IMG/VR virus record: IMGVR_UViG_3300031952_000086 | Location: 1 to 32,244 of that record | Direction: 5' to 3' (one strand) | Length of the DNA: 32,244 nt | DNA from: a virus | Shown: positions 1,419 through 30,775 of the stretch, piece by piece | Layout of the letters: every line of letters begins with the position of its first letter | Position numbering within the stretch: the first letter of the stretch is position 1 | Notes under the pieces: generated by a model | The model's database searches: none | What the model was told of the DNA's origin: nothing | Seen by the model: the letters and a program-made list of their open reading frames with translations, nothing else | Translations under genes and position numbers: made by a program

Positions 1419-5348
<3,930 letters not shown>

Positions 5349-5371: not shown

Positions 5372-8300
5372 ATGGCTCTGATTAAGGGTTTAATAGATGC
5401 ATCTTCTGGATATGAGATATCTAATGCTGATGGTCGTTATGGTATTAAAGCATCTTCAGCTAATTATTTAATGACTTTAAATTCAGACGGCTCTTATATA
5501 AATTCCCCTTTATATACAGACGGTACTTATGTAAGTTCTTCTATTGGTCTTGACGTCACTGGCAGTATATTGTCATCTTCTTTTTTTAGAGATCAGAATG
5601 GTTGGATGACTACTAAAAGTCAGTCCATTAATTTACCTGTCACTAATCAGCTCGGAGGAGGTTTTGGAGGAAGTGTTGCCCCTTTATCCTCTGGAGACAT
5701 GACTACTAATGACTTCGTAGAATTTGATGCCTCTACTAATGTTGCTAATACAGTGGCATATAACGGTTCTGTGTTTGATGGCCGGTATCTCTATCAGGTC
5801 CCTTATGGAGGGGCCTCAGCACATGGAAGAGTAATTAGGTATGATACTGCTTCATCTTTCTCTGATAGAAGTTCCTGGACTTCTTATAATGCTTCTGGTA
5901 CGGGTAATGCAGATAACTCTACTGCTGTTGGTTATTTAGGGGGTTCTTTTGATGGGCGTTATGTCTATTATAGCCCTTACTGGACAGGGTCTACACGTTA
6001 TGGGAATATTTTAAGATATGATACTAAAGCTTCTTTTAATAGCCCATCATCTTACTCAGTATTTGATGCCACAAAGATTAATCCTAATGCTAAAGGGTTT
6101 TATGGGATGGTGTTTGATGGTCGGTATAATTACCATGTCCCTAATTATACGGGGACCGATTATCATGGGAATATTCTGAGGTATGATACTTCCGGTAGTT
6201 TTAAGGATGTAGCATCTTATTCAGTATTTGATGCTACGACATTAGATACATCAGCTAGGGGTTTTGTTGGAGCTATTTTTGATGGTAAATACATCTATTA
6301 TTCCCCTAATAGAGTGACTGGAACAGTCCTTAATGGAAAGGTATTAAGGTATAACACACATAAGGATTTCTTGGATGCAAGTTCTTATAGTATTTTTGAT
6401 TTAGGGCTAATGAATCCTTTAGCTAGAGGTTATTTTGGAGGGACTTTTGATGGCAGATTTGTTTATTTAACTCCATATTATAATGCGGCATATCATGGGA
6501 ACGTAGCTCGGTATGATACCCTAAAGAATTTCAGTGATACGACTGCCTGGGAGATTTTTAATATTGCTGCACTAGGAACAGGATTTGAAGGGGCCTATTT
6601 TGAGGGTAGATATGTTTATTTTGTTCCTTATGATAGCTCTAATTTAGTTCGATATGATACCCAGCAGAGGTTTTCAGATATTAGTTCCTGGTCCAGATAT
6701 AATGTGGTAAGAAATAGCTTTACAGGGATAAATTCAGATGGAAGATACTTGTACTTAACTCAGGCTCAGAATTACATTATAAGATTTGATACGAAGACAG
6801 TGTTATCTTCAAATTATCCGAGTCTGGATAATTTAGCTGTAGGAGAAAATTTATATATAGACTCTTCTTCAGGGTATGTAGGATTAGGGACTAAAACTCC
6901 TCAGGCTAAATTAGATGTTCAGGATACTACGAACCAGTTAAGATTAGGGTATAATGATTCTACTCAGGTTGTTTTTAATGCTGATTCTTTTGGCAGTCTG
7001 AATATTTCGTCTAATAATTCTCAATCAAATATTAATGTTGATAGAATGTCTGTATCAGCTACTCTTTTTAGAGATCAGAATGGTTGGATGACTACTAAAA
7101 GTCAGTCCATTAATTTACCTGTCACTAATCAGCTCGGAGGAGGTTTTGGAGGAAGTGTTGCCCCTTTATCCTCTGGAGACATGACTGCTAATGACTTCGT
7201 AGAATTTGATGCCTCTACTAATGTTGCTAATACAGCGGGATATTACGGTTCTGTATTCGATGGCCGATATCTTTACGAGGTCCCTACTACTACACCTACA
7301 ACAGCACATGGAGTAGTCATTAGGTATGATACAGCTTCTTCTTTCTCTGATAGAAGTTCCTGGACTTCTTATAATGCTAATGGATCAGGGAATGCAGATA
7401 ATTCTATGGCTGCTGGTTTTGTTGGAGGATCTTTCGATGGCCGCTATATCTATTATAGCCCTAATTATGTGACAGGAGGTCTTACTCTTCATGGGAATAT
7501 TTTAAGGTATGATACTAAAGCTCCTTTTAATAGCTCTTCTTCTTACTCAGTATTTGATGCGACAATGATTAATCCTAATGCTAAAGGGTTTTATGGAGTA
7601 GTATTTGATGGCCGGTATAATTATCATGTCCCTTATAATTTAACAAATGTCGTTTATCATGGAAATATTCTGAGGTATGATACTTCCGGGAGTTTTAAGG
7701 ATGTAGCATCTTATTCAGTATTTAATGCTACGACATTAGACACTTCCGCTCAGGGTTTTTCAGGGGCAATATTTGATGGTAAATATATTTATTATGTCCC
7801 TTATATAATAACTAACGCAATTGGTAATGGGAAGGTATTAAGGTATAACACACATAAGGATTTCTTAGATACCAGTTCTTATAGTCAATTTGATTTAAGT
7901 TTAATGAATACTTTAGCTAAGGGGTATCGAGGAGGAACTTTTGACGGTAGGTTTGTATATTTTACTCCCTATTATAATTTATCTACAGCAGTTTATCATG
8001 GGAACGTAGCTCGGTATGATACCCTAAAGAACTTTAGCGATGCCACTGCTTGGGAGATTTTTAATATTGCATCATTAGGAGTAGGTTTTAATACGGCTTA
8101 TTTTGAGGGTAGGTATGTTTATTTAGCTCCTTATGATAGCTCTAATTTAGTTCGATATGATACCCAGCAGAGGTTTTCAGATATTAGTTCCTGGTCAAGA
8201 TATAATGTAGTAAGATCTGGGATGGGTGCGTTAAGTTCTGATGGGAGATTTTTATATTTAACGCAGAATTTAACAGAGCAGAATTATGCTATAAGGTTTG

Positions 8301-10281: not shown

Positions 10282-10310
10282 TTGACAGTAAATGTTTTTT
10301 ACTATATATT
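10282..10310 (+). promoter_or_regulatory. Sigma70-type promoter of the RNA island
   Basis: A perfect -35 box TTGACA (10282-10287) is followed after 17 bp by TATATT (10305-10310). It sits just after the fibre gene's stop and about 72 bp before the tRNA. It predicts a start near 10317 and a transcript through the tRNA, and possibly through the repeat-flanked RNAs downstream. Confidence 0.65.
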
Positions 10311-10381
10311 TGAGGTAGATTGATAGCTGATCTTTGATAAAAACGAGAGCTTTGAGCACTTATTACTTCAAGGGCATACAT

Positions 10382-10458
10382 TAACATATAGCTCAGTTGG
10401 TTAGAGCAGTTGCCTTCAAAGCAACATGTCACGGATTCAAACTCCGTTATGTGATCCA
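10382..10458 (+). tRNA. tRNA with anticodon UCA (reads UGA), CCA encoded
   Basis: A full cloverleaf can be folded. The acceptor is TAACATA (10382-10388) with TATGTGA (10448-10454), six pairs and one A-G mismatch at 2-71. The D arm is GCTC/GAGC (10391-10394, 10404-10407) with an AGTTGGTTA loop. The anticodon stem GTTGC/GCAAC (10409-10413, 10421-10425) carries the loop CTTCAAA, so the anticodon TCA is at 10416-10418. A five-base variable loop follows, then the T arm ACGGA/TCCGT with loop TTCAAAC. The discriminator is T and CCA is encoded at 10456-10458. This reads UGA. It is not tRNA-Sec, because the variable arm is short. U1-A72, the A2-G71 mismatch and A53-U61 are unusual. It could be an opal suppressor, a Trp-type reader, or a tRNA with another role; the amino acid cannot be assigned. 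Confidence 0.85.
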
Positions 10459-10464
10459 AAGGTT

Positions 10465-10482
10465 TCGACCCTAAAAGGTCGA
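10465..10482 (+). other. Short hairpin after the tRNA
   Basis: A perfect 6-bp stem TCGACC/GGTCGA (10465-10470, 10477-10482) with a CTAAAA loop, followed after a few bases by four Ts. It could be a weak terminator or a processing element separating the tRNA from the downstream RNAs. Confidence 0.4.
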
Positions 10483-10523
10483 GATCGTTTTGCCTGTGAG
10501 ACTTGTGCTCAACTCTCTCTTTA

Positions 10524-10557
10524 TATTTTGTCATGCCTTATGGCGTGTGGATTGAAA
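10524..10557 (+). repeat. Type I-C CRISPR-repeat-like block, copy 1
   Basis: Copy 1 of a 34-bp block found again, identical, at 10667-10700. From 10530 it reads GTC, then ATGCC, TTAT, GGCGT and GTGGATTGAAA, followed by C at 10558. That is the layout of type I-C CRISPR repeats: a GTC start, a small hairpin and a GTGGATTGAAA(C/T) 3' handle. At 29 nt it is shorter than the usual 32. The first bases (TATTTT) could instead be a -10 box, and GGCGTGTGGATT can pair imperfectly with the shared downstream tail AACTCAGACACC. The block may therefore be the 5' arm of a Y RNA. Confidence 0.6.
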
Positions 10558-10559
10558 CG

Positions 10560-10647
10560 AAAATTTAGGTGTCTTTTACCGTAAGGGCTTACATTCATTT
10601 CTCGGTTCGATTCCGAGTGTACCTTCCAAAACTCAGACACCTTTTTT
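10560..10647 (+). ncRNA. tRNA-mimicking RNA, probable Y RNA partner of the Ro60 protein
   Basis: The segment AGGTGTCT (10567-10574) pairs perfectly with AGACACCT (10635-10642), forming an 8-bp stem that closes the RNA and is followed by a T run (10642-10647). Inside lies a perfect tRNA T arm, CTCGG-TTCGATT-CCGAG (10601-10617), followed by TGTACCT, T and CCA (10626-10628), exactly as at a tRNA 3' end. There is no normal D or anticodon arm, only a small GTAA/TTAC hairpin. Bacterial and phage Y RNAs encoded beside Ro60 genes are known to carry a tRNA-like domain and a terminal Ro60-binding stem, and a TROVE gene lies 500 bp downstream. The exact 5' end is unknown and may include the block at 10524-10557. 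Confidence 0.65.
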
Positions 10648-10666
10648 AAAAATTTCATGCGTTTTG

Positions 10667-10700
10667 TATTTTGTCATGCCTTATGGCGTGTGGATTGAAA
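10667..10700 (+). repeat. Type I-C CRISPR-repeat-like block, copy 2
   Basis: Identical 34-bp copy of 10524-10557, offset 143 bp. The first base after it differs (T at 10701). Between this block and the shared 16-bp tail at 10732-10747 lie 31 unrelated bases, close to the length of a CRISPR spacer. The two blocks are too far apart (109 bp) to form an ordinary array. Confidence 0.6.
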
Positions 10701-10747
10701 TAAATCAAGCGATATAGAAAATAGCTCTCACAACTCAGACACCTTTT
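10701..10747 (+). ncRNA. Second small RNA body with the shared 3' tail
   Basis: This stretch follows repeat copy 2 and ends in AACTCAGACACCTTTT (10732-10747), the same 16 bases that end the tRNA-like RNA (10630-10645). Two units with the same 5' block and 3' tail but different middles (72 and 31 bases) suggest two related small RNAs. With no other GGTGT-type partner, its tail would pair with GGCGTGTGGATT of copy 2 (9 of 12 positions). It could be a second Y RNA without a tRNA module, or a crRNA-like transcript. Confidence 0.4.
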
Positions 10748-10754
10748 ATAATCT

Positions 10755-10806
10755 AAAGCCGGAAAGTAGAAATAAAAAATATTTCTTTTTTCGGCTTTTA
10801 TTTTTT
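10755..10806 (+). terminator. Rho-independent terminator of the RNA island
   Basis: The stem AAAGCCG/CGGCTTT (10755-10761, 10792-10798) is extended by A-U and G-U pairs and an inner GAAATA/TATTTC hairpin (10769-10774, 10780-10785), then followed by a T-rich run to 10806. It separates the RNA island from the protein operon. Confidence 0.75.
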
Positions 10807-10857: not shown

Positions 10858-11103
10858 ATGTCAGTTCATGTTATTTACAACGGTCGTACTGAAGACATTG
10901 CCTTTGATGAAATGTTTTCTTCTGAACATCTCTCAGGCCTGGGTATCACTGGAACGGTCACTCCTCAGTCAGTCACACCTGAGCAGGTTAAAATGGCCGC
11001 TGCTCAACATTTTGATGTTGGTCTTAATGAATTCCAGGACCATTTCGTGGAAATAAATCCAAACGGTAATATCACCGTACGGCCACAGACAACTTTCGGC
11101 TAA
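10858..11103 (+). CDS. Ubiquitin-like small protein (PRTRC C-like)
   Basis: An 81-residue protein that I read as the ubiquitin-like modifier of the downstream operon. The start at 10858 has an AAAGGAG ribosome-binding site. It opens with a beta-strand pair (SVHVIYNGRTEDIAF), has a predicted helix (TPEQVKMAAAQHFDV) and a final strand (GNITVRP), and ends in TTFG. The size, order of strands and helix, and C-terminal Gly resemble PRTRC-system protein C and other phage Ubl proteins. There is no GG and no extension beyond the terminal Gly, so it would not need trimming before activation. The assignment rests mainly on context: the E1/ThiF and JAB genes are in the same operon. Confidence 0.55.
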   Translation: MSVHVIYNGRTEDIAFDEMFSSEHLSGLGITGTVTPQSVTPEQVKMAAAQHFDVGLNEFQDHFVEINPNGNITVRPQTTFG

Positions 11104-11143
11104 TAGCCCATATATACAAATAAAATAAGATAGGATTAATGAC

Positions 11144-27928: not shown

Positions 27929-29643
27929 AAAAGACCTATCAAATTAAAGCCGGAAAAAATACGGTCACTCTCACCGACAAGGATTACATAGCTGCCGGTG
28001 GCCAAGGTGTGGTATTTGTTCAAAAGGGTCTCGCTTATAAAATTTACCATGACCCTAAACAAACTATTCCTGTGGCCAAGATCAATGAACTGGCAGCTCT
28101 GACAAGGCCTGATATCCTGGGTCCTAAAGAGCCCATATATGACCTGTCTAATACTCCTATTGGGTTTACCATGGATTATGTCGATGGGGTAGAATTCCTG
28201 TGTAAAATTTTCACTCAGGAATTCAGGAATGATCAGAATCTGTCTCCTCAGGACGTTTCCGATCTTGTTGTGTCCATGCAAAAAGCCCTGGAATACGTAC
28301 ATTCAAAAAGCGTCCTTGTAGTGGACTACAATGAAATGAATTTTCTGCTGGGTAAAAAAATAGTCTATCATATAGACGTTGATTCCTGGCAGACAAAACA
28401 TTTCAAGGCACCCGCCATCATGGAAAGCATTCGTGACCGGTCTACTCCTAAAGGAGTATTCACCGAATTCACTGACTGGTTCAGCTTTGCTGTTGTCACC
28501 TTTCAAATGTATGCCGGAATCCACCCTTATAAGGGCATGCATCCTGATTTTAAACCCAGTGAATGGGCTAAACGAATGGAACAAGGTGTCTCAGTATTTG
28601 ATAAAAAGACCAAGATCCCGGCTTCCTGTCAGAACTTTAATGTCATCCCCAAACGGCATCTGGAGTGGTATAAAGACATTTTTTCTAAAGGGCAGAGATC
28701 GATACCACCTTACCCAGATGATGTCACTGTGCCTGCCCAGATCAAGACGGTCATTGTAAGCAAAGGGGATTTCATCATAAAATTATTAGAAAGCTATGAT
28801 GAAAATATCCGTAGTGTCTATCACTACAATAATCGCAGATATGTCATAACTGATAAAGCTCTGTACCATGCAGACAAAAAAGTCTGTGATCTGTACCCGA
28901 AGATCAGGACCGAACTTTACAGCACCCCGGGAAATGACCCTATACTGGTCTGTAAAAAGAATTCAAGTGTTGATTTCCTTGACCTGAAAAAAAACCTAAT
29001 CACATCAGTGCCGGCCGAAAACATGATGATGAGTAATGGTCTTATTTATATCATCAATAATGGATTTCTTATTGAAAACACTTTTGAAAATATGGGAAAG
29101 CTTTTTCTTAAGAGTCATGTTGTCTGTGACATCAGCCGGTCTTACAAAGTCTACCGAGGGATCATTACTCAGGATGATTTCATGTCCTGTCATCTGGCCA
29201 TACCGTATGCTTCTGGTAAATGTGTCAATATCCATGCAGAAGAATTAGACGGCAGTCATATTATTGACGCTCATTACCACAATCGAATAGCCGTTGTGAT
29301 CTCCGAAAAAACAGGGGCTTACTTCCAAACCATCTTTCATTTCTATGACAACTGGCACAACAATTACACCGTCAGAGATGAGCAGATAAATGAAGTAAAC
29401 CCAGCTAATTTTATTGTACTTCCAAATAAATTATGCGTTCATGTCGAGCAGAATAAAATCAGCCTCTTTAAGGACAACACAAAAAGAAAAGAGCTGGCTG
29501 ATCCTCCAATAGAACCCTCTATGAGACTCTATAATGAGGACATGACTGTTTTATTCGCAGACGGAAAAAAGCTATATTCTATGGGGGTAAACTACCACGG
29601 ACACAAAGCCCGTGGCTTTAAACCTGAGACCCTGAACAGATAA
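27925..29643 (+). CDS. Protein kinase with C-terminal extension, 3' end altered by TnpB element 2
   Basis: A 572-residue protein with an N-terminal protein-kinase domain (residues about 1-270). Visible motifs: Gly-rich loop GGQG (25-28), Lys39 in LAYKIYHD, hinge FTMDYVDG, catalytic loop VVDYNEMNF (D134, N139) and metal site HIDVDSW (D151/D153), then FSFAVVTFQM. The HRD His is replaced (VVD), as in atypical bacterial kinases of TerY-P-like sets. Residues about 275-550 are beta-rich and may form a propeller-like sensor. The last ~18 residues (NYHGHKARGFK) are encoded by the right end of a TnpB element, so the native C-terminus is probably lost. It likely phosphorylates partners within the vWA/PP2C cluster. 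Confidence 0.72.
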   Translation: MKKTYQIKAGKNTVTLTDKDYIAAGGQGVVFVQKGLAYKIYHDPKQTIPVAKINELAALTRPDILGPKEPIYDLSNTPIGFTMDYVDGVEFLCKIFTQEFRNDQNLSPQDVSDLVVSMQKALEYVHSKSVLVVDYNEMNFLLGKKIVYHIDVDSWQTKHFKAPAIMESIRDRSTPKGVFTEFTDWFSFAVVTFQMYAGIHPYKGMHPDFKPSEWAKRMEQGVSVFDKKTKIPASCQNFNVIPKRHLEWYKDIFSKGQRSIPPYPDDVTVPAQIKTVIVSKGDFIIKLLESYDENIRSVYHYNNRRYVITDKALYHADKKVCDLYPKIRTELYSTPGNDPILVCKKNSSVDFLDLKKNLITSVPAENMMMSNGLIYIINNGFLIENTFENMGKLFLKSHVVCDISRSYKVYRGIITQDDFMSCHLAIPYASGKCVNIHAEELDGSHIIDAHYHNRIAVVISEKTGAYFQTIFHFYDNWHNNYTVRDEQINEVNPANFIVLPNKLCVHVEQNKISLFKDNTKRKELADPPIEPSMRLYNEDMTVLFADGKKLYSMGVNYHGHKARGFKPETLNR

Positions 29644-29760
29644 CACTATTATGTGCAATCATTTCAAGTACTACCAATCCCGATTTTTCAAGGGTGTTTA
29701 CCGACCCTATCCTGCGAAAGCCTTGCTCTCGCAGGATATATCGACTCCTAATGTTCTTAC
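29590..29760 (-). ncRNA. Probable reRNA of TnpB element 2
   Basis: The 3' part of the tnpB gene and the right end fold into hairpins, including CCTGCGA/TCGCAGG-type pairing around 29710-29740 and the CCACGG/CCGTGG hairpin. The guide would match the kinase-gene sequence to the left of about 29590. Limits are approximate. Confidence 0.4.
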
Positions 29761-30775
29761 TTGCAGTCAGGTCCGCATCTCCCCTGTGGCCACAGGACAC
29801 ACATTGGAACTGCAAACCTGTACGGTTCCCATTAGCTATATGCCCACATCTCGGACATTCCTGACTCGTATATGCAGGATTCACAATCTCTGTTCCAATA
29901 CCTTTCTCGGCAAGCTTATAGCCTGCCTTGAACTGCATTCCTGCATACGGCCACCTACATACCTTCTCTCGAAGATCCTGGCCCTTCTTCAGAGAGGCTT
30001 CTCGAATATTGCTAAGGTCTTCGAACACGACCACCCGAGCATTAGACTGAACGGCATACAGGGTCAAGGCTTTAGAAGCAACATGCAAAAGATGTTCCGT
30101 AATGGCCCTTTCGCGGTGTGCCAATCGCTGCAAAAGGCGATGGGCCGACCGGGTACCTACGGCTTGAATCTTACTCCGTCTCTGTCTAATACATTTCCTC
30201 AGGTGATTAAGTTTTCCGCCAGAAAAGAAGAAAGTTTTATTGTCAGAGGAGTTCGAGGCAACAAGCATCCGCTTGATGCCGGAATCCACACCTACAATGG
30301 AACCTTTCTGAACAGGTTCTGGAACTTCTTTTTCATAGCACAAAATCAAATAAAGTTTATTTTTAACAAGTTTAAGTTTCGAATCTTTCCAGGTATTTTG
30401 AGGTATGTTGGGATGATACATGGAAATGGTTTCTCCCCAGAGGGAGACACCTTTTTTGGATTTATTGAAATCCCGTTTCCAGACCAGAGGAAGAGTAGGA
30501 TTTTTAAAAATGGCCAGTTTCCATTTTTTATTGGACTTAGCAGCCTGATAAGTTGCGGTAATATGCTTGCAAATACTGCAAGCAAGCTGGGACGGGAGAC
30601 TAAATTTTTCACGAAGGGCTGGGTAATAAGCCTTGGCGAGTCGATTAGCGTTCATCTCTTTGGAGTCGAACGCTATAGGACTAAGCCAGTTAAGGGCCAG
30701 GAGATAATTTTTGATTATTTCTGGGGCTTTGTTGGAGCCTTTAATTTTAATTTTGGTAGTACGAATGACTTTCAT
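29618..30775 (-). CDS. tnpB: TnpB-family RNA-guided nuclease, second and divergent
   Basis: A 385-residue TnpB of a different lineage from the one at 15490. The RuvC residues are present: D164 in VGVDSGIKRM, E252 in VVFEDLSNI and D335 in GDADLTAS. The zinc ribbon is C307/C310 (CPRC) and C325/C328 (CVSC). The N-terminal region is unlike the first TnpB. The gene's start codon lies in the left-end inverted repeat. Its stop is next to the right-end hairpin, so the reRNA overlaps its 3' end. The catalytic residues argue for an active nuclease rather than a repurposed repressor. Confidence 0.88.
   Translation of the reverse strand: MKVIRTTKIKIKGSNKAPEIIKNYLLALNWLSPIAFDSKEMNANRLAKAYYPALREKFSLPSQLACSICKHITATYQAAKSNKKWKLAIFKNPTLPLVWKRDFNKSKKGVSLWGETISMYHPNIPQNTWKDSKLKLVKNKLYLILCYEKEVPEPVQKGSIVGVDSGIKRMLVASNSSDNKTFFFSGGKLNHLRKCIRQRRSKIQAVGTRSAHRLLQRLAHRERAITEHLLHVASKALTLYAVQSNARVVVFEDLSNIREASLKKGQDLREKVCRWPYAGMQFKAGYKLAEKGIGTEIVNPAYTSQECPRCGHIANGNRTGLQFQCVSCGHRGDADLTASKNIRSRYILREQGFRRIGSVNTLEKSGLVVLEMIAHNSVICSGSQV

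Follow-up and report, generated by a model that had tools for sequence, protein, structure and literature searches.

A probable phage Y RNA gene with a tRNA-like piece beside a Ro60 gene

Does the RNA encoded at position 10567 of this virus record, close to a phage gene for a putative Ro60 protein, belong to the Y RNAs, and how much of a tRNA does it contain? We analysed the 32-kb record over its whole length of 32,244 nt, referred to here as the window. A 40-kb sister contig was 99.99% identical to the window over the part compared and added no variation. A preliminary description had proposed a Y RNA in which a T arm, a tRNA-like 3' strand and CCA are closed by an 8-bp stem with a T run, with neither a D arm nor an anticodon arm. 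The candidate, denoted as unit B, has the following elements, two of which are competing 3' strands.

10567-10574, plus strand: lower Y stem, 5' strand AGGTGTCT
10575-10595, plus strand: internal loop TTTAC on the 5' side, then the 5' strand of the upper helix and motif CTTACATT; top profile site of the window
10601-10617, plus strand: tRNA T arm, CTCGG-TTCGATT-CCGAG; sole strict T arm of the window
10618-10628, plus strand: acceptor-like 3' strand TGTACCT (10618-10624), then TCCA (10625-10628)
10631-10647, plus strand: proximal 3' strand ACTC-AGACACCT and T run, the closure of the preliminary description; 8-bp stem with no upper-helix 3' strand
10721-10747, plus strand: distal 3' strand ATAGCTCTCACA-ACTC-AGACACCT and TTTT; pairs best with the 5' strand 10567-10595

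The T arm, the acceptor-like 3' strand with TCCA and the stem with its T run were all present on the plus strand where they had been claimed. In the stem, AGGTGTCT at 10567-10574 pairs over 8 bp with AGACACCT at 10635-10642, followed by TTTTTT. When both strands of the 32 kb were scanned for strict T arms, only the one at 10601-10617 was obtained. The fold of 10555-10655 had z = -2.35, and 2 of 200 shuffles were equally stable. We found no D arm and no anticodon arm in unit B, as had been described, and no rotation of the stretch yielded a tRNA, as a circularly permuted tRNA gene would have done. The tRNA-like content is therefore real but limited to the T arm with the 3' acceptor strand. Considering the GC-rich stem and the TTTTTT at 10642-10647, the structure might be taken for an intrinsic terminator or a chance hairpin 3' of a tRNA gene. 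However, the terminator scan did not call the hairpin at unit B, and the module to which it belongs occurs 2-12 times per related phage, in the same place and with covariation, so that this reading is disfavoured and hardly credible.

The RNA sits 0.4-0.6 kb upstream of the gene for its likely binding partner.

11144-12793, plus strand: Ro60/TROVE protein (profile, Foldseek, phrog_850)

Scans with the single protein sequence were blank or weak, and Pfam matches stayed below the cut-off. A profile made from eight homologues matched TROVE/Ro60 chains, namely 9l5y/9kop (E 5e-5) and human RO60 (E 4e-4). When the predicted structure (mean pLDDT 81) was searched with Foldseek, the top 13 matches were all Ro60, with E down to 5e-12 (a TROVE structure) and TM of about 0.6, and the matches included the Ro60 of Thermus phage phiLo. 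The protein belongs to phrog_850 (RNA-binding protein), and its structural matches fit a TROVE ring fold with a vWA domain. Judged by its predicted fold, it is a genuine Ro60/TROVE protein. TROVE proteins are known from some jumbo phages (PMC7824862). Around the gene, 10858-14848 is a conserved neighbourhood of genes for a small protein, Ro60, the 12777 protein, a JAB-like protein and a ThiF/E1-like protein, and this order was found again in most relatives. The neighbourhood is possibly a ubiquitin-like conjugation cassette tied to Ro60. The ThiF and JAB-like identities were supported; the small protein 10858 and the protein 12777 matched no family, the latter also giving no confident fold match, and the label PRTRC (ubiquitin-like cassette) was dropped.

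The same Ro60 is present in the 595-kb phage LR756511.1 as well as in other IMG/VR contigs. Besides the window, ten phage records that encode this Ro60 have the stem of unit B in 2-12 tandem copies, all beside the Ro60 gene, and the Ro60-adjoining RNA family spans at least eleven large-phage records, the window included. In each locus read closely, the tandem copies lay beside the Ro60 or the small-protein gene. On its 5' side, the module consists of the lower stem, a 5-nt loop ending in AC (CCNAC, TTTAC, ATTAC), the upper helix and CNTACA(AAC/TT), and on its 3' side of an upper-helix strand containing AGC, which is separated by two or three bases from ACTT/ACTC/ACTA, with the lower stem thereafter. 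Read as RNA, the lower helix is followed by the internal loop YCNAC/ACUU, then by the covarying upper helix and the motif CNUACA. The window holds two such modules (10352 and 10567), compared with 0.3 per dinucleotide shuffle. When the scanner was applied to the RNA regions, 3-11 modules were obtained in five relatives and 2 in the window, whereas shuffles gave 0-0.06 and the opposite strand none.

For the comparison of 56 modules from 10 phage records, the distal 3' strand was taken in the row of unit B, and hand corrections were made to three rows from other loci. In this alignment, 81.4% of cells were paired, compared with 59.4% in shuffles and 32-47% when slid, and both-side changes were seen in all 14 pairs, although the pairing and covariation of the lower stem are partly built in because the lower stem was the selection criterion of the scanner. 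The upper helix, which had no part in the selection, was paired in 82.8% of cells. Covariation in related phages, on whose absence the preliminary description would have let its proposal fall, is at hand. Within four whole records, matches to the 5'-strand motif were confined to the neighbourhood of the Ro60 gene (12 of 12 matches within 3.4 kb in the 595-kb phage, 7 of 7 in a 390-kb record), and the reversed control gave 0. In L020, a locus left out of training, four modules were found, all in this region and on the other strand. The 5' and 3' ends of the module are paired in a stem with an internal loop that is conserved, covarying and laid out as in the YrlA model. From these sequence comparisons, the stem of unit B belongs to a conserved module that covaries and is restricted to the Ro60 locus, and by this stem unit B would be a Y RNA. 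The proposal of a Y RNA adjoining a phage Ro60 gene is well supported by the Ro60 fold, by the restriction of the covarying stem to the Ro60 locus and by the YrlA-model loop layout with its ACUU(G) strand.

The 3' end of unit B had to be placed between the two 3' strands, since a second copy of AACTCAGACACCT lies at 10732-10744. We scored unit B with a family profile that was built without it. Its 5' strand ranked first among all window positions with 16.5 bits, followed by unit A, the module at 10352, with 13.0 bits. On the 3' side, the distal copy (10721-10736) scored 17.2 bits and ranked first in the window, whereas the proximal copy (10631-10642) scored 7.1 bits and ranked 27th. With the distal strand, the AGC sequence is again in place and 7 of the 8 pairs of the upper helix can form, while the proximal one has no 3' strand for the upper helix. 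The minimum free energy fold over 10560-10755 likewise uses the distal closure, at -41.7 compared with -38.3 kcal/mol for the proximal. Because the profile prefers the distal 3' strand, which comes with upper-helix pairs and the lowest-energy fold, we place the Y RNA at 10567-10744, so that it is probably 178 nt long. The 8-bp stem of the preliminary description does exist, but the 3' boundary drawn from it is probably wrong, as the distal strand fits far better. The short form 10567-10642 is an alternative and could arise, for example, from cleavage at repeats. With its two 3' strands and an internal repeat, unit B has the look of a rearranged, possibly decayed copy.

The preliminary description made no mention of a tRNA-TCA in a similar stem, or of two 38-nt CRISPR-like repeats, in the same region. 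The tRNA lies within unit A, behind a promoter-like sequence.

10282-10310, plus strand: sigma-70-like promoter TTGACA-17-TATATT, 5' of the RNA cluster; 11 of 12 consensus bases, a consensus match only and not proof of function
10345-10517, plus strand: unit A, a complete tRNA enclosed by a Y stem whose lower helix, 10352-10359 / 10505-10512, continues outward; module scan
10382-10458, plus strand: the tRNA of unit A, with anticodon TCA and CCA encoded; ARAGORN, Rfam tRNA 60 bits

The fold of unit A (10340-10524) had z -4.6. Its tRNA-TCA is of the opal suppressor type, though TGA is the stop of 7 of the 34 ORFs in the window, and the recoding of TGA that such a tRNA suggests is not supported.

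Across the family, tRNA parts are combined with the Y stem in three topologies. In topology (a), the Y stem surrounds a complete tRNA, as in unit A, in L005 (Thr and Ser) and in L007 (Gln and Cys), and also in L009, L010, L011, L012, L013, L017, L020 and L022, with encoded CCA in many. In topology (b), a capped Y hairpin follows the D arm of a tRNA, and cutting out the hairpin restored the tRNA in 26 of 32 cuts for L005 Arg, 29 of 32 for L012 Gln and 17 of 32 for L005 Tyr; this topology is less firmly shown than (a) and (c) because the excision test worked for some units only. In topology (c), the Y stem contains a circularly permuted tRNA. Seven units (Lys, Leu, Leu, Arg, Ser and two more) gave a tRNA on rotation only and are otherwise missed by ARAGORN; rotated shuffles gave 0 of 10 for each of the seven, and random windows 1 of 600. 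In each of the seven, an acceptor stem of 7/7 bp forms over a linker of 4-8 nt, L020 adds two units, and the permuted tRNAs of the family carry anticodon arms.

L013 6290-6763: permuted units
L011 5910-6054: permuted unit
L017 5455-5605: permuted unit
L009 6337-6487: permuted unit
L005 4401-4548: permuted unit
L020 4590-5194, minus strand: permuted units

These units bear on a further proposal, that AGGT in the 5' strand switches between pairing with ACCT of the acceptor-like strand and with the terminal stem. The switch is not supported and has no counterpart in the relatives, where the 3' strand of the acceptor forms 7/7 bp with a 5' strand of its own and the Y stem invariably makes up the lower stem. 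As for the fate of the permuted units, several linkers are capping tetraloops (UUCG, GAAA), suggesting mimics rather than precursors, and in L011 an A-CCA ahead of the linker speaks for processing. Ligases, which permuted tRNAs might require, are encoded in some records only (RtcB in the L017 contig; an RNA ligase in LR756511.1 and in the L012 contig), so splicing is no common feature of these phages. The RtcB gene of the L017 contig (L027/L028, 193767-196052) is one 801-aa frame with about 1 kb between two matched parts, and looks as if it carries an intein or a large insertion. In L005, two further structures were observed: at 6942-7043, between Y units, a tRNA-like sequence whose anticodon arm is much lengthened by an insert of about 35 nt (Rfam tRNA 29.6 bits), and at 4680-5020 a 5' strand of the Y type (GATACCGTCCCCGAC...CTTACAAAC) with a complementary 3' strand (ACGGTATC) that seemingly lies about 300 nt away, the two enclosing a large structured RNA.

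The T arm of unit B begins 5 nt after the motif, the same as in the permuted units of relatives. On sequence grounds, unit B looks like a permuted unit without its 5' tRNA half, that is, an abridged member of the permuted class. It might instead be a decayed remnant of a permuted Y-tRNA unit, a rival that we consider unlikely but worth weighing. Units B and C would then be tandem duplicates, B having retained the 5' strand with the tRNA 3' half and C the 3' strand; the D/anticodon half would have been lost, and only unit A would be functional. The failure of every rotation to give a tRNA agrees with decay, as do the upper-helix strand that is absent from the proximal and present in the distal 3' strand, the direct repeats of 38 nt and 30 nt surrounding the rearrangement, and the existence of an intact relative at L017 5455-5605, a permuted tRNA-Ser with a nearly identical 3' strand. 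However, the Y stem of unit B is intact in both closures and has the best 5' strand in the window, the sequence is the same on both contigs, and the stem is kept even in family members without any tRNA part (L005 6623 and 6701). Very unlikely, in our estimate, is that unit B supplies the 3' half of a trans-split tRNA and that the matching 5' half lies elsewhere in the phage genome, the halves being joined by Y stems. Its complete T arm, 7-nt acceptor strand, single base and CCA would suit such a half and can be compared with L011 5910, a permuted unit in which CCA is encoded, but the 32-kb window has no 5' strand complementary to TGTACCT with a following D arm, and the 40-kb sister contig no further AACTCAGACA strand.

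The short form of unit B is flanked by the two 38-nt direct repeats, which are 97% identical where 0 are expected by chance.

10520-10557, plus strand: CRISPR-repeat-like copy 1 (hairpin and GTGGATTGAAA), just 5' of the Y 5' strand of unit B
10663-10700, plus strand: CRISPR-repeat-like copy 2, within the long form of the Y RNA or between units B and C

L010 has two repeats of another sequence and the same design (GTCGCTGAAAAGCGYGGATTGAAAC), near 5713-5737 and 5895-5919, each directly 5' of a Y unit, and the repeats of both are type I-C-like, with a hairpin and GGATTGAAA. Neither the window repeat, for all its I-C-like hairpin and GTGGATTGAAA end, nor the L010 repeat was matched exactly in any of 84,980 species genomes, and a host CRISPR array could therefore not be assigned. 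Solitary repeats carried by phages can work as RNA anti-CRISPRs (Racrs), type I-C among them (PMC10651486), and the window repeats may be RNA anti-CRISPRs or processing signals. As in the Racrs of that work, they are phage-borne CRISPR-like repeat copies without following cas genes; unlike Racrs, they have no matching host repeat that we found and sit beside Y RNA units. The stretch between the copies might accordingly be an RNA anti-CRISPR or mini-array, with the Y-like RNA as cargo freed by a host Cas5d. This seems improbable to us: the two copies, their counterparts in L010 and the known activity of solitary repeats fit it, but the repeat lacks an exact match, the spacing of 143 nt from start to start does not fit a spacer, Y units in most family phages have no such repeats, and the Y stem is left unexplained.

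Chen et al. in 2014 reportedly described Y RNAs close to Ro60 from numerous bacteria and phages, with at least one per species having a tRNA-like domain; phage Y RNAs that include a tRNA-like part are therefore an already known kind. Animal Y RNAs have pyrimidine-rich loops in place of tRNA parts, and we know of no tRNA fusions among them. Animal and Deinococcus Y RNAs resemble unit B in the two-part Ro60-binding stem with a conserved internal loop. YrlA is by its structure a circular permutation of tRNA (PMC11472068), and its Rfam model (RF02553) runs from the Y stem through the T arm and a capped acceptor to the D arm, with AcUuG in the 3' strand. Unit B shares with YrlA the place beside a Ro60 gene, the lower stem, the 5-nt 5' internal loop, the upper helix and the AcUu(G) 3' strand, and in both the T arm comes first after the 5' strand. 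It differs in having no acceptor hairpin, no D arm and no Rfam match, and other phage family members differ in that they have an anticodon arm or enclose or interrupt complete tRNAs, neither of which is done by YrlA. In Rfam scans of the window, tRNA was the sole match, with no Y RNA or YrlA at the gathering score or at E up to 10; the YrlA model matched one family member (E 2e-6). With no match at the gathering score and without the series of T arm, capped acceptor and D arm, unit B is not a YrlA by the tests made. The permuted tRNA genes of algae and archaea likewise have the 3' half ahead of the 5' half and acceptor ends joined by a short linker (PMC3978253, PMC3218864), whereas the phage breakpoint is at the variable region, is filled by the Y stem and has no bulge-helix-bulge splice motif. 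In the literature searched, we found no description of whole multi-isotype, interrupted or anticodon-arm permuted tRNAs in Ro60 stems, and whole tRNAs of many isotypes in such stems appear to be new. The interest of the family lies in these new-looking tRNA fusions; the 10567 copy itself holds a tRNA fragment only.

Taken all together, we favour the reading that the 10567 copy is a phage Y RNA gene, in which a two-part stem for docking on Ro60 is combined with a tRNA-like piece in a bait or tether role. A transcript would start from the promoter at 10282 and fold into the lower helix, a YCNAC/ACUU-type internal loop and the upper helix. By established Ro60 biology, the stem would dock on the phage Ro60 from 11144-12793, and the far end of the RNA would show the T arm, the acceptor 3' strand and CCA. 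By analogy, Ro60 would then display tRNA shapes as bait or tether for tRNA-binding proteins, which seems the likeliest role; the RNA could be a decoy for tRNA-cutting defences or, like bacterial YrlA-type RNAs, an adaptor for a nuclease or modifying enzyme. The decoy idea has already been raised for YrlA (PMC7790460). More tentatively, large phages may encode a set of Ro60-bound tRNA chimeras, of many isotypes and in three topologies, as armoured tRNAs or decoys against tRNA-cutting host defences, a proposal toward which we lean less than toward the Y RNA itself. If true, the set would include the first reported phage circularly permuted tRNAs with anticodon arms. Fusions of Ro60 stems with tRNAs of varied anticodons, in three topologies, make it directly testable what bacterial and phage Y RNAs do and why some of them resemble tRNAs: are these tRNAs charged, are they cut by anticodon nucleases, and are they processed? 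The fusions also suggest tRNA genes as the origin of the permuted YrlA layout. As standard tRNA finders miss permuted and interrupted tRNAs, phage tRNA counts may be too low. Elsewhere in the window, two divergent TnpB-like (IS605-type) ORFs, named by eye from their translation, were observed on the minus strand at 15490-16746 and 29618-30775.
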